Assembly (NCBI GenBank): GCA_022385805.1
Contig: MU277676.1
Coordinates: forward strand, 142,090 to 176,019
Direction: 5' to 3'
Origin: Pilatotrama ljubarskyi
Lineage: Eukaryota > Basidiomycota > Agaricomycetes > Polyporales > Polyporaceae
DNA: 33,930 nt
Below, one piece after another: positions 16,435-26,222 of the stretch (positions are counted from its first letter, which is position 1; each line of letters begins with the position of its first letter). The notes beneath the pieces are model-generated. The model saw only the letters and a program-made list of their open reading frames with translations, was not told the DNA's origin and did no database searches. Both the position numbers and the translations under genes were made by a program.

Positions 16435-18077
16435 ATGCAGCTCTTCACCGCGATACAGCTCAGCGTGGCCCTCGCCCTCGCGGCGGTTGCTCATGCGCAG
16501 TCTCAAGCCCAGGAATGGGGTAAGTATCGGGCGTCAACTCATCTTTTGTGAGCATCCCTGACTGATGGTCGTGCCTACAGGACAGTGTGGAGGTATCGGT
16601 TGGACCGGTCCCACCAGTAAGTTGTTGCAGGGTCTCTGAGTTTAAGCGTATTCACCGTAACTCTGCAGGCTGCGTCTCTGGCACCGTATGCACGGTCATC
16701 AACTCCTACTACTCGTAAGTCTTAGCTACTTTACGCCGGTCGGCTCGCTCAATGAATGCGTGCAGGCAATGTCTTCCTGGCGCTGCTTCCAGCGCCCCTG
16801 CATCCACGAGTACCATCCCCGTCACGACACCTAGCTCCCCGGCCAGTCCGCCCACGACTTCCGCACCCGCTCCCACCGGCCCCGCCGCCTCCTGCGCGAC
16901 CCCTGCGACCATTCCCAACTACAGTAACACCAAGCTTCCCAACCCCTTCCTCTTCGACGACGGTACCCCCGTCAAGACGGCTGCGGACTGGGAATGCCGC
17001 CGCGCGCAGATCAACGCCTTGATCCAGGGCTACGAGGCCGGCGCGCTTCCGGGCAAACCCTCTTCTGTGTCCGCCCAGTTCAGCAAGTCGGGCACCCAAG
17101 GCACGCTCTCCATCACCGTCAGCAACGCCGGAAAGTCTATCAACTTCGCTCCCACTGTCACCTTCCCCTCCGGCAACCCTCCCGCGGGCGGCTGGCCCCT
17201 GGTCATTGCCTATGATTCGCTTAGCATCCCCGTCCCCTCAAACGTGAGTATCAGCTGACGGGTTTATTAAAGAGCATCGTCTGACCTCCCATCGCAGATT
17301 GCTGTCATGATCTACTCCAACTCCGCCATGGCCCAACAGAACGACCAGTCCAGCAGGGGCGTCGGCCTGTTCTACAACCTCTTCGGTTCCAGCGCGACAG
17401 CGAGTGCAATGACCGCCTGGGCATGGGGCGTCAGCCGCATCATCGACGCCCTCGAACAGACTCCCTCCGCTCAGATCAACACCCGGCGCATCGCCGTCAC
17501 TGGATGCTCGCGTGACGGCAAGGGCGCCCTGATGGCGGGCGCGCTCGAGCCGCGCATCGCCCTCACGATCCCGCAGGAGTCCGGCTCGGGCGGCGACGCG
17601 TGCTGGCGGCTGTCCAAGTACGAGCAGGACCAGGGCTCGGTCGTGCAGACCGCGACGGAGATCGTGACGGAGAACGTGTGGTTCTCGACGAACTTCGCGA
17701 ACTACGTGAACAACCTGAGCGTGCTCCCGTATGACCATCATCTCCTCGCCGCGATGATCGCGCCGCGCCCGATGATTTCGTTCGAGAACACGGACTACGT
17801 GTGGCTGAGCCCGCTCAGCTCATTCGGGTGCATGACCGCCGCGCACACGGTGTGGGACGCGCTCGGCGTCGCGGACCGCCACGGGTTCGAGCAGATCGGC
17901 GGGCACGCGCACTGCGCTTGGCCAACGTCTCTCAGCCCTCAGCTCAACGCGTTCTTCGACCGCTTCCTCCTCGACCAGAACGTCAACACCAGCTACTTCG
18001 CCTCTAACATGGTCTTCAACGGCGTGACGTGGAACCAGGCTCAGTGGATCGACTGGACCACGCCCAAGCTGACGTGA
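16435..18077 (+). CDS. Secreted CBM1-linked glucuronoyl esterase (CE15)
   Basis: 4-O-methyl-glucuronoyl methylesterase that cuts the ester link between lignin alcohols and glucuronic acid on xylan, outside the cell. Five exons (16435-16519, 16581-16616, 16669-16714, 16766-17243, 17298-18077) give 474 residues. In order: a signal peptide of about 21 residues ending AVAHA-QS; a family 1 cellulose-binding module ([19 protein letters not shown]...YYSQCLP); a Ser/Thr/Pro/Ala linker; and the CE15 domain. The catalytic Ser is in GCSRDGKG (about residue 286), the acid in PQESGSGG (about 309) and the His in GGHAHCAWP (about 418-420). All three CBM1 exon joins are in frame. Length and architecture match known white-rot enzymes. 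It looks fully functional and is unrelated to the neighbouring P450s. Confidence 0.96.
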
Positions 18078-19923: not shown

Positions 19924-20861
19924 CGTCGTTGTCTTGCTGGTGGGTGTGAATGTGTTACGACCGGTCTGGAATCACGACGAGCGGCGAGTTGGAGGAAGAG
20001 AGGGTGGAGAAGAACGGAGCGGTTTAAGTAAGTACGAGTTTGATCCATCACGATCATCTCATCAGTTCGCGCTGCAGCGCTCGTCCTCGACTTCGCAGCG
20101 CATCCCTCCTCTTTAGGCCTCCACATCGACGTGGTTTCAAGCAACACCGGAGTCAATCATCGCTCGCCCAGTACGGCTCGAACCGATCAGCACTGGGCTG
20201 TGCAGGCGAAGGCTAGCCTAGACGGAGGGCGGAAATGCACCGCGCACCCAGAACCACATCTATACCCGCCTTCACCCCTCCGCTGACGACGGTCGACAAG
20301 TTCCCCTCACTTGCTGCCGGACATTGCGCGACAGCCGCAGTGGCGTTTCCTGACCCCGCAACGACCTCATGATCCTCCCGTAGAGTTGCTCGATTGCCCT
20401 TTGGTTGCCCTGGTGCTCGATCGCGACCCGCGCTGGTCCCTCCTCGGACTGTACACGTCTTCGACGAGTCAATCGCAGCCGTTCATGGTGGCCTCGGACA
20501 GAAGAGAACTTGTGTCGCCAGCCCTTCGCAGGTTGGGCTTCCTGTCTTCCTCGTAGCGTGACTACCTCAGAGATTCCATGGCAGACCTATGTAACCGCTG
20601 GTCTCGTGCCCAGACGTAGGATGATACAGCCGCACCCCACCACCGCGCTCATCCGACGTCTGGGGCATTTCAGTAGAGGCCTCCTACCTCCCCCCCAATT
20701 TGAAATTAGTCACGGTCACAGTGCCCAGGCACGCCTCGGGAATCTCGCGTGGCCAGATTACCTCGTCAGATCTCCTCCCTTTTTTGTTATGTCGCCAGAT
20801 CGATGTAATGTCTGTTTGGCCCTTGGCCGAGATAATCTGAACGCCACAGCGAAGAGGGTCG

Positions 20862-21416
20862 ATGTTCTGTCTCAACTACACCATGGACATCGAGACACAC
20901 CGACACAATCTCATCAGTCACTACGAGCTATTCCCAAACCACTCTGACGACCTCGAGCCAAACACTATCAGCTATGAGAGCGAACTTGATCTTGAATCGG
21001 ACGATGCCGATGGCAGCTGGCAAGATGAGCTGCACATGTTCGAGGATGACCCGTTTGACGACGAAGGCCACCGTGAGCGAGAGGAGGCCGAAGTGTGCTT
21101 CGACGAGGATCATTCAGGCTTACAGGCGGGCATTAGGGAGAGAGAAGTCAGTAGTGATTGTCAGGCCGTGAGGAACGTTCTTGCCTTCATGAAGACCCAG
21201 AAAATCAGGAAGCGGGAGATGACGCTGGGATCCTTCCTCGAGGCCTTGAGCTGGGGCGACACGGACTGTGCTTCAGACAACATAATCCGTGGTCACCGTA
21301 CGGTATTTCTGAAGAGCGCGGAGTTTGCAAGACTATTGCGTACCTGGAGGATGCCTCCCCGCTCCAAGCGCTCCCACCGTTCGCGGCCTGCAGGTGGGCG
21401 CCCGTACCCGCAATGA
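20862..21416 (+). pseudogene. Truncated N-terminus of a DUF6589-type protein
   Basis: The frame starts 75 bp inside the left TIR. It reads an acidic N-terminal region rich in Asp, Glu and Ser, then KREMTLGSFLEALSWGDTDC, RTVFLKSAEFARLLRTW and MPPRSKRS...RPAGGR. From memory this pattern (a long-helix FLxALSWGD block, then LLxxWxxPPR and an R-x-GAR block) is the region before DUF6589 in many agaricomycete proteins. The similarity ends at about 21400, where the sequence becomes the complement of the helicase gene and a stop follows. The DUF6589 domain itself is absent. The family call rests on recognition and needs a profile search. Confidence 0.55.
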
Positions 21417-21651
21417 CAGTGCAGTCGAGACCAAGATGGAGCGCCTCTGCGACATCAAGCTGCCAGTCATGAGGCACCATACCGCTGGTGCGTCTGGCGA
21501 AAGCGTCCGACATAGCTTGACGCGTGCGCTGCGAATTGTATCCTCGTTCTTGTTGAGCGCGCAGGCGGGCATTCTCCAGGTTTTGTCGAGCAAGCGCATG
21601 CCGGTCAGAGTTATAGTCACCAGAGCGTCCAGAGTGGTAAGGAGCAGGCAT
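21395..21651 (-). pseudogene. Truncated N-terminus of a RecQ-like DEAD helicase
   Basis: Starting about 108 bp inside the right TIR, the frame reads a polar N-terminal region, then FARRTSGMVPHDWQLDVAEA and LHLGLDCTVIAGTGA. This is the region up to helicase motif I of the RecQ-like helicases that are abundant in basidiomycetes, where AGTGAGKT would be expected. The match breaks inside the Walker A loop, right after GTGA, and runs into the complement of the DUF6589-type frame. The Lys-Thr that bind ATP and all later motifs are missing, so the fragment cannot work as a helicase. Confidence 0.75.
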
Positions 21652-21954
21652 GTAGATACAGAGCTCGCAGTACGGCAGTTGTGAACACTGGAGGAGGCAG
21701 ACGAAGGATGCCGGGCACTATAGACGCGACGCGTTTGCGCTACGGCGAAGATTCATACACAAAAAAGGGAGGAGATCTGACGAGGTAATCTGGCCACGCG
21801 AGATTCCCGAGGCGTGCCTGGGCACTGTGACCGTGACTAATTTCAAATTGGGGGGGAGGTAGGAGGCCTCTACTGAAATGCCCCAGACGTCGGATGAGCG
21901 CGGTGGTGGGGTGCGGCTGTATCATCCTACGTCTGGGCACGAGACCAGTAACCG

Positions 21955-22969
21955 CCGACGCTTCGCGTGTATATGTCATTTGAGAGCTCTGTCTTGCTCC
22001 GCAACGCCTTGGGAATATCAACGTGTATCCGTGTTGATTCATCAAAGCCTGCTAGCTCATCATGTGTGCCGGAGCCGTCTGCGTCCACTCAAATTGGTTA
22101 TGTCCGGAGACAAACGTGGGATAAGCCGGGGGCACCCTTGTCCTTGTCGCTCTTGTGATCCTGTCTGATCGTCTGCAGAGGCTCTGCTCTACACACTCAT
22201 GACATCCAGGTATTTCGACACTTTGCGATGGTGCCTGCAACTCACCGTACGCATCCCAGAGATCCTCATGGCAATCTCGGCCTCAACAGATAACTGCCGC
22301 TGCGTCCCTGATCAACCGTTTCTTGTCTCCCGTGGCTCTGGACAACTATCAGATCGTGGGGATAGCTCGCGTTCCCTATATGAGCCGTGAAGCCACATAT
22401 CAGCACTGTCTTCCTTCTCGCCCAACACAAAGACGACACAGCTTCTACTGTGCTAGCCACCTCGGGGGCGTGTTCTTGACTTCCGCGGGGACAACACCTT
22501 CGATTGAGGCCCGAGAACGCCACGGGCGAGAACACTATCATTGATATGTCAAATTCGTGTCTTCTCGTCGCCCTAGCATCGCCTCTCGCCGCTGGTGAAC
22601 GCTGGACTGACGAGGTCTGCGCAGTGGCAGCACTGCGATCTCGAGATACTATTCGCAGAGGGCGATTACGATTGCATGCGTGGATTTCTGAATTCAAATT
22701 TTGGCCCGTCACCCTCTCAACTACTCACTATATGTGGCCAACGGTACCTCGGTCATATGCTAGGTGAGTCTAGGCGGAGTGCCCACAGTACGAACGCGTT
22801 TCTTTATCTGGCACTTTCCGTCTCATGTAGCACCTCTCGTCCGATTTCAGCAGGACGTCGAAGCTATCCGGGGCGTCTGGTTGCTGCGAGAAGAGCGCGG
22901 GCATGGGGTCGGTCCGAGGATGTCGGCGGCCTCCTTGCCCCTAGCCTGCACAATGGTGGCCTGATGTTT
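21955..22969. other. Region without recognisable gene
   Basis: Between the TIR element and the peptidase relic I see only short frames without motifs. Part of it may be decayed downstream exons of the peptidase, but I could not locate its second catalytic Asp or C-terminus. Confidence 0.4.
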
Positions 22970-24446: not shown

Positions 24447-26222
24447 CTACGCTCTCTGGATCACAGGGAGGGGCCTCGTGGCCTCCCCGGGATCCTGATT
24501 GCGGTTGAGCGGTCGGTGCAGCCATACAAGCTTCGGCGCAGGAGATGGCTCTCGCATGGCGCGAACCGGCTGCGGGGCGACGACGTTGTCGCGCGGTGGT
24601 GGCGGAGCGGTGCTATGAGCAGGCGGAGGAGGAGGGGATTTGACTTCCTGTACCGCTCTCGAGGTGAGTTCCTGTGGAGGGAGCGGGGAGGGGTCGCGTT
24701 CTCGCATGTTGCGTGTAGCCTCTACCCATCGCTGCGTCCGCTCCTCCTGCGCCTAGCACGCGGATCGGGTGAATGAGCGTTGTTCTACTCACGCGGGATA
24801 TGCATCGCTCTCAAGAGGGACACTCACCCCGTAGTCTGATACGCTCCGCCGGTGGTCCATCTCATTCTCGATGAACCTGTCGAACGCGTCGAGGGCGCGC
24901 GCACGCTCCTCCTTCCGGCCCCGCGCGTAGCCCGCCTCATACCCGTCCGAGTATCCCGCCTTCTTACCCTCCTCGAACCCCGTCATCCGCCCGGCCGCGA
25001 AGCCTTCTGAGCGGCCGCTCTCGTACCCTTCCCTTGTACCCTCCTCCCTACCCTCTTCGTATCCGTCCGCGCGCCCAGCGTCGTATCCGTCTGCTCGACC
25101 GTCCTCGTAGCTGTCGTCACGGTTGTCGGTGAGGCGCCTCCTCAGCTCCATCCTCCTGACCTCCTCGCGGCCCTGCTCCCTCGCCTGCCACTCCCTCAAC
25201 CTCTGCTCGGCCCTGCGCGCCGCTTCTCGCGCCTCCCTCTCGTCTTCCTCCTTCTCCTGCCTCGCTCGCTCGACGCGCGCGAGCTCCGCCTGCAACCTCC
25301 TCGTCTCGCGCTCCGCCGCGTCCGCCTGCATCTGCCACCGCCTACACTCCTCCTGCGCGCGTGTCGCGTCGAGCTCCGCCTGGTGCCGCCCCGCCTCCGC
25401 CGCGCTGAGCCGCGCGCTCAGATCCTGCACGCTGATCTCCGCGGAACGCGCGCGGCTCTCCGCAAGGTCCGCGCGGCGCATCTCCTCCTCGAGCCGCGCG
25501 CCCGTCTGCCTGAGCACCGCCTTGAGGTGGCGCGCTTGCCGCTCCTCCTCCGCAAGCACGTGAGTGAGGATGGACGCACTGTCGCTGTCGCGCTCCTTCT
25601 CGCGGTCGCGCTTCTCCTTGCGCGGCGGCTTCGCGGTGGACGAGGTGTCGGTCGTGCGCGTCGACTCGCGGTCGCGGCTGCGCTCGCGTGTCCGGCTGGA
25701 CTCGCGCTGGGGGAGGTCGCGATCGCGATCGGGGAGGGGAGGTACATCGCCGCCGGTGGAGGTGCGTCCGCGGGGCGTGTGTGAGCTGGACGACGCGCGG
25801 CGGGCCTTCTTGCGGTGGGAGAGAAGGTTGGAGAGGACGGCCGGGTCGCGGAGGATCTCGTGTATGGGAGTGGGGGAGATGCTGGCTTCGTGGAGCTCGT
25901 TCAGGAGGTTGAAGCTGGGATCAGTGGTGAGCGATCGCTATCTCTGAATTGGGTCGCGAGCAGTATGCACGACTCACTCGTGGGCGCCCGGTGTGTGTAC
26001 GAGGGGAGGCGACAACGTGTTGAACGACCGCGGGGTCAAGAAACCGGGCTGGGGACTCAGTCCTGGGCTGTACGACCCCCGCATCTGAGGCTCGAGACTG
26101 GGGAGCTGGAGAGTGTCGCGGGGAGAGGGCGTTGGGGGGAGGTGGTGGAGACCGTCGAGCGGCGGGACGGGGAGGGGAGGGAGTTCATCGACAGAGTTCG
26201 ACTCGCGGTGCTCACCGTACAT
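24447..26222 (-). CDS. Coiled-coil protein with a long glycine-x3 repeat
   Basis: Three exons (26222-25978, 25914-24828, 24752-24447) join to 545 residues. The order is: a proline-rich N-terminus; a short ordered block (FNLLNELHEASISPTPIHEI, then LRDPAVLSNLLSHRKK); a charged Arg/Asp/Ser region; a long coiled coil rich in Ala, Arg and Glu (about 25570-25130); the glycine repeat (25100-24918); an AQEERTQRWVEATRN helix; and a proline-rich tail. In the repeat, 16 glycines occur at exactly four-residue spacing with Tyr or Phe recurring after many of them (GYDAG, GYEEG, GFAAG). I do not recognise a named family. The order suggests a conserved fungal scaffold, but the function is unknown. Proline-rich coding text continues upstream of this ATG to an AG acceptor-like site, so the true start may lie in an earlier exon near 26424. 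Confidence 0.75.

Follow-up and report, generated by a model that had tools for sequence, protein, structure and literature searches.

Structure of the element in the window

The window analysed here, 33,930 nucleotides from the polypore Pilatotrama ljubarskyi (GenBank assembly GCA_022385805.1, contig MU277676.1, positions 142,090 to 176,019), contains an element that was confirmed as real, a shortened version of a transposon found in mushroom-forming fungi. Two arms at 20598–20787 and 21759–21948 are 100% complementary across 190 nt. Comparison of three genomic copies placed the end of the element at TGGTCTCG, giving a span of 20599–21947 (1349 bp) with terminal inverted repeats of 189 bp, the left one (20599–20787, forward strand) starting with TGGTCTCGTGCCCAGACG and the right one (21759–21947, reverse strand) having the same sequence. 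The repeats had been given as perfect over 190 bp in a preliminary description made from the sequence alone; they are perfect, but those belonging to the element are one base shorter. Comparison of the flanks identified an 8-bp target duplication, GTAACCGC, at 20591–20598 and 21948–21955. The earlier report of a duplication, TAACCG, thus held for its presence but not for its length: these are its central 6 bp, the outermost bases of the target, G and C, being complementary by chance. The three copies are located at C7:162688 (the window copy), C7:297916 (identical) and C38:176609 (two differences), with loci given here by contig label and position. Their 8-bp duplications differ (GTAACCGC, GGAAGCGC and GCTGAATC), marking three separate targets, and the near-identity of the copies suggests recent movement.

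Two inward-pointing gene pieces were assigned by homology. On the forward strand, 20883–21401 encodes 173 N-terminal residues of a DUF6589-type transposase, in a frame that stops at 21416. On the reverse strand, 21400–21651 encodes 84 N-terminal residues of a RecQ-like helicase and ends in the Walker A codons (...IAGTG). The pieces start 95 bp (20883) and 107 bp (21651) from their inverted repeats, within the 75–110 bp noted initially. Homology to intact proteins ends at element positions 803 and 802 (window positions of about 21401 and 21400), so both pieces are cut at the same place, as had been proposed, and a deletion junction lies at 21400–21401. Judged from the lengths of P0080 and P0227, the missing coding sequence amounts to about 4.1 kb or more. 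These two proteins, encoded on a single Trametes cingulata contig of 155,886 bp, were the most identical relatives of both pieces among the 240 proteins listed, P0080 having 87% identity to the DUF6589 piece over 71 residues and P0227 87% identity to the RecQ piece over 38 residues; the next match of the DUF6589 piece by E-value, among the matches listed, had only 34% identity.

Full-length relatives in the genome

A search of the genome with the terminal repeat recovered shorter and longer relatives of the element, and a Pfam DUF6589 search recovered eight loci. A RecQ-type helicase gene adjoins DUF6589 at seven of the eight, that is at all seven resolved loci, where the two are separate genes on opposite strands; the eighth locus, C158, runs off its contig. 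Four of the loci are two-ended elements with 9-bp duplications (one of them mismatched), three with convergent and one with divergent genes. The elements at C16:473950–480250 (6.3 kb) and C38:274051–280231 (6.2 kb) both have inverted ends TAGTCTCGTGACCAGA, between which the DUF6589 and RecQ genes converge, and the DUF6589 frame of the latter is open for 844 residues, the length of the annotated protein P0001. The convergent layout is repeated at C25:138124–161100, with the RecQ gene split by a nested insertion, and the copy at C123, which is older, has suffered damage to its right end. The ends of the full-length elements read T(A/G)G-x-CTCG. The ends of the window element are related to those of the C25, C16 and C38 elements, and both of its gene pieces are homologous to the genes of these elements. 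At C64:160111–168263, and from C112:60041 to the contig end, DUF6589 and RecQ lie back to back. C64 and C112 (60041–67991) represent a second lineage with divergent genes, and 472 proteins (120 listed) matched in a search for relatives of the C112 DUF6589 protein. A distant convergent DUF6589 and RecQ pair is found at C38:26–31 kb. Among viral contigs, 143 stretches matched a pattern, with no relative among them.

A second, independent derivative from another family was found at C13:543192–543603, where the same two N-termini are joined; the RecQ portion shares 62% identity with P0210 and the DUF6589 portion 91% with P0084 of T. cingulata. This derivative bears on the possibility that an unrelated transposon took up pieces of two host genes in the manner of Pack-type elements, a reading suggested by the presence of N-terminal pieces only and by the lack of a parent in the assembly. 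Such gene-fragment capture is largely refuted by the C13 derivative, by the related full-length elements with both genes in the same arrangement and related ends, and by a pairing that, on the protein comparisons below, appears old and co-inherited; we regard it as highly improbable.

A 23-kb giant element considered at C25 proved not to be a unit, being a normal two-gene element whose RecQ gene is interrupted at the Walker A codons by some 16 kb of inserted DNA. The insertion (C25:144350–160560) begins with CATCA, ends with TGATG, is flanked by CA and contains further reading frames, one of which resembles, by eye, a Plavaka transposase. Its ends and CA flanks are similar to those of PlavakaB as described in PMC12730594. 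The RecQ Walker A codons have been struck three separate times, by the deletions at window position 21400 and at C13:543440 and by the C25 insertion, a recurrence that may reflect chance or a fragile or targeted site.

Target duplications and ends

An 8–9 bp duplication with at most one mismatch flanks 10 of the 11 two-ended elements and is perfect in eight. It measures 8 bp in four elements (the three copies of the window family, 8/8 bases matching, and C29, 7/8) and 9 bp in six (C90, C26, C25, C16 and C64, 9/9 matching, and C38, 8/9), so that most relatives have 9 bp instead of the 6–7 bp predicted for other insertions. When the flanks of different elements were crossed in 110 comparisons, at most 6 of 8–9 bases matched, which makes chance a poor explanation for the duplications. 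A 6-bp duplication of the kind considered for IS3EU and Dada was ruled out, the end at TGGTCTCG giving 8 bp in the three copies and mostly 9 bp in the relatives. In 8 of the 10 duplications the first base is complementary to the last, and in a ninth, that of C29, this holds for one of the two copies; the inverted repeat thereby seems to extend one base further than it does.

Short elements with ends TAGTCTCGGCTCCAGACG were sampled in eight stretches, four of which contained a candidate second end; perfect 9-bp duplications flank three of these four (726, 187 and 176 bp), and no duplication was found at the fourth (189 bp). Complementary first and last bases were seen in none of the three short elements with these ends, and four of the eight stretches are self-palindromic. 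These short elements, which lie at C21:335822, C81:83860, C73:7576–7751 and seven more places, have ends of the form TAGTCTCGG(C/T)TCCAGACG. They were probably moved by the machinery of the DUF6589 elements, and the right end of C123 seems, by eye, to contain one of them.

DUF6589 as a candidate transposase

A confident AlphaFold2 model of DUF6589 matched DDE transposases (Hermes, P element, Tn5 and RAG1), the nearest folds being hAT Hermes and the P element. This DDE-like fold indicates that DUF6589 is most likely the transposase, and of the DDE type. Three acids are conserved, D330 in 86 of 89 sequences and D501 and E745 in all 89. Endpoint offsets of the fold alignments, a crude measure and not a superposition, place E745 at position 572 of Hermes, 530 of the P element, 962–964 of RAG1 (mouse rows) and 331 of Tn5; the catalytic glutamates of these enzymes are 572, 531, 962 and 326, respectively. 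The Pfam family PF20231 covers residues 382–797 of P0001 and leaves out D330, the first catalytic-type aspartate, so that an N-terminal extension of the family would be possible. The DUF6589 domain most likely represents the C-terminal half of a DDE transposase. One DUF6589 protein, P0260 of Ganoderma boninense, carries the UniRef name of the splicing helicase PRP28, which is likely a misnaming.

The P element duplicates 8 bp of its target and MuDR typically about 9 bp. For hAT elements the duplication is usually 8 bp (PMC12730594), and for IS256 and MuDR together it is 4–10 bp (PMC10045372). The 8–9 bp duplications observed here therefore fit hAT, P and MuDR, and together with the nearness of the DUF6589 fold to Hermes and the P element they speak for a divergent lineage of one of these established superfamilies that acquired RecQ, without a rank of its own. 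Pfam models of hAT, P, MULE and KDZ were found in none of 10 DUF6589 proteins in a list extending to E 1, HMMER filters dropping most matches above E 0.1, and the KDZ domain PF18758 was found in none of the 10, KDZ matches occurring elsewhere in the genome. In addition, the C/DxxH signature that follows the second acid in hAT, P, MuDR, Kolobok and Dada was not seen by eye; the residue at −3 is G before H536 in 88 of 89 sequences and N before H546 in P0001. The DUF6589 elements thus resemble Hermes and the P element in fold and in duplications of about 8 bp, but differ in lacking a Pfam match in the 10 proteins, in having mostly 9 bp and a RecQ partner, and in the large extra regions, low TM-scores and absence of CxxH at the conserved histidines of DUF6589. 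We consider membership of an established superfamily a serious reading, though somewhat unlikely.

The KDZ (Kyakuja-Dileera-Zisupton) elements are also DDE transposons of Agaricomycetes, some with an accessory enzyme gene (TET/JBP), and Zisupton duplicates 8 bp, according to PMC12730594; they have another transposase family, whereas the accessory gene of the DUF6589 elements is RecQ.

The RecQ partner and its co-inheritance with DUF6589

The best NCBIfam model for the RecQ protein P0121 was recQ_fam (E 2.2e-49), below the curated cut-off (168.5 of 219.8 bits), and the best solved structure for P0124 was WRN (E 9.5e-22). In the C16 element, DEAD was found in two exons and Helicase_C in one, above cut-off.

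Protein searches of 8000 scored candidates each gave 174 DUF6589 matches (120 listed) and 652 matches to the RecQ model (120 listed). Among the matches listed, 95 DUF6589 rows carried an organism name, and 38 of these, from 30 species including P. ljubarskyi with two rows, share a contig with a listed RecQ, the same contig being recognised by species and equal contig size, not by DNA. About 3.6 shared contigs would be expected by chance overall (40-Mb genome), and on contigs under 100 kb, 10 of 21 rows matched against 0.03 expected. Two of the contigs, from Agrocybe chaxingu (6315 bp) and Agrocybe pediades (5312 bp), are roughly the size of a single element, and neighbouring gene numbers were found for several pairs, as in T. 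cubensis (g5810/g5811), Rhodofomes roseus (g2764/g2763) and A. chaxingu (g10340/g10341).

Distances among DUF6589 proteins and among their RecQ partners were correlated over 36 pairs (r = 0.855), a value reached in 0 of 5000 permutations (maximum 0.20), which ignore species relatedness. The set leaves out P0051, which has two RecQ candidates, and P0100, a second protein on a contig already used; for Earliella 5425013, P0127 was taken of two RecQ candidates. Both proteins had the same nearest neighbour in 22 of the 36 pairs. Four species each have two well-diverged pairs, and for six of these eight pairs both partners shared a nearest neighbour in another species, indicating that the partners track their lineage and not the species. 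On these sequence comparisons, the DUF6589-RecQ pairing is judged to be old and co-inherited.

In fungi, RecQ genes undergo amplification at the ends of chromosomes (PMC7473861 and PMC4522978), and C112, C123 and C158 are located at the ends of their contigs, so that RecQ could be imagined as the driver, as in subtelomeric RecQ repeats, with DUF6589 merely riding along. Inverted repeats and staggered-cut duplications are DDE signatures, the DUF6589 fold is DDE-like, and the C16, C25 and C64 elements lie inside contigs; a RecQ driver is scarcely credible.

Academ duplicates 3–4 bp of target, and by this and by the transposase Academ and AcademH probably differ from the DUF6589 elements. RecQ has been reported in Academ, and Academ and AcademH resemble the DUF6589 elements in having RecQ or another helicase as an accessory protein (PMC3627910). 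KolobokH, similarly, is described in PMC9587614 as having a DDE transposase, inverted repeats and a RecQ helicase, and as known only from fungi. These reports raise the question of whether the DUF6589 elements are KolobokH or AcademH under a Pfam name. Kolobok duplicates TTAA (PMC9587614), which was seen at none of the 11 elements, their duplications being variable and 8–9 bp long, and the RecQ of KolobokH lies downstream of the transposase domain, whereas that of the DUF6589 elements is a separate gene on the opposite strand. Identity with KolobokH or AcademH is therefore very unlikely.

Stem-loops in the element ends

The left repeat of the window element contains a stem-loop at 20609–20664 on the forward strand (arms 20609–20624 and 20649–20664; fold z −3.49, none of 200 shuffles as good), and inverted-repeat detection places its counterpart at 21882–21937 on the reverse strand. 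Folded as single-stranded DNA, 9 of 12 ends beat their shuffles with z of −2.4 or below. The stems start about 9–14 nt from the tip, or 22 nt in the C112 fold. The mean score for pairing with an end's own arm was 12.3 vs 7.8 with the arms of other ends, and permutations did as well as the real pairing in 0 of 20000 cases for 13 ends, among which related ends are not independent, and in 35 of 20000 for a set of six (one end per family plus both ends of C64). The own arm was the best partner in seven of the 13 ends and tied in one. Stem-loop arms thus tend to change together. Conversion between the arms could keep them complementary, as could two inverted binding sites changing with the transposase; against the latter, both ends of C64 serve one transposase, yet they have different stems, each self-pairing.

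On either side of the element, the window contains a glucuronyl esterase gene at 17271–18074 on the forward strand (GCE_fung, E 8e-91) and a gene for a Yae1_N protein at 24792–25937 on the reverse strand.

Interpretation of the element

The window element is very probably non-autonomous, a copy of the Ac/Ds kind that arose by internal deletion from a two-gene cut-and-paste DNA transposon of Agaricomycetes. Like Ds and the KP derivatives of the P element it keeps its ends, has lost its interior and occurs in several near-identical copies at new sites; unlike these, it keeps both gene starts. KP encodes a short protein that represses transposition. Helitrons have neither inverted repeats nor a target duplication, and the window element family has both.

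The full-length unit is about 6.2–6.3 kb long with convergent genes, or about 8 kb with divergent genes in the second lineage. In the mechanism that we propose, the DDE-type transposase (Pfam DUF6589) would bind the ends, excise the element and join it to a staggered cut in the target. The RecQ helicase, which remains paired with the transposase over long times, may unwind or repair DNA at the folded ends or in the excision gap. The 1349-bp copies would have been mobilised by a transposase supplied in trans, as must have been the case since neither enzyme is whole in them. We propose further, and only tentatively, that these elements form a DDE group of superfamily rank with RecQ as a fixed working part, in which folded ends with drifting sequence and kept pairing are partly what is recognised or processed and RecQ unwinds the fold or an excision intermediate; this wider proposal we think unlikely.

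Several observations weigh against the preferred interpretation. No near-identical full-length parent of the window family was found in the P. ljubarskyi assembly, where the interior of the element had no matches beyond the three short copies and a single stretch of 92 bp at 77%, so the deletion is indicated by homology and not by alignment of parent and derivative. The T. cingulata matches span just 71 and 38 residues, as the protein sequences listed begin late, and the best E-value of the RecQ piece among the matches listed is to a Polyporus arcularius protein, P0200 (62% over 68 residues). For HRDC, the match in RecQ stays below the cut-off, and 57 of the 95 DUF6589 rows have no listed RecQ on their contig, with 120 of 652 RecQ matches listed; one such row is P0001 of P. 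ljubarskyi, for which RecQ is present in the DNA. No target duplication was found at one of the 11 two-ended elements (C7:462106) and no inverted repeat at the C38:26–31 kb pair. TM-scores to known transposases are low (0.15–0.32), one Foldseek match only had E ≤ 0.001, and the DUF6589 sequence profile gave no solved-structure match (best E 0.31, unrelated), so that the assignment as transposase is based on the fold together with the conserved acids and not on activity. Against the stem-loops, three of the 12 ends (both ends of C29, and C58) gave z above −2, and in four of the five remaining of the 13 ends the arm of a close relative pairs better than the own arm, the better partners being the window element for both C29 ends, the right end of C38 for its left end and C16 for the right end of C38; for C123, an arm of C38 pairs better by one point.

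The main inference of the preliminary description, a two-gene parent and an internal deletion, is nevertheless supported. Convergent full-length elements joining DUF6589 and RecQ in one mobile unit are present in the same genome (C16, C38 and C25), as had been anticipated, and the suggested search with the terminal repeat for longer elements holding both genes led to elements with related ends; the loss of the centre is borne out by homology but not by a near-identical parent in the assembly. The same description also put forward the terminal repeats as putative promoters. RecQ as transposon cargo is already known and not new as an idea, because it has been reported for KolobokH and Academ (PMC9587614 and PMC3627910), which qualifies the earlier remark that no description of such an element was known to its author. 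For the DUF6589 transposase family, its duplications and its constant RecQ partner in a separate gene, no description was found in the literature searched, Repbase and subscription papers lying outside that search.

These results suggest a likely function for Pfam DUF6589, a family of unknown function that recurs across agaricomycete proteomes (two candidate-limited searches, possibly overlapping, gave 174 and 472 matches). Many hypothetical proteins and RecQ-like genes of mushroom genomes should accordingly be masked as transposons. The elements would represent a widespread case of a transposase co-inherited with a separately encoded helicase, the two genes occurring in two arrangements. Why transposons carry RecQ becomes directly testable, and the covarying stem-loops of the ends hint at where to look.
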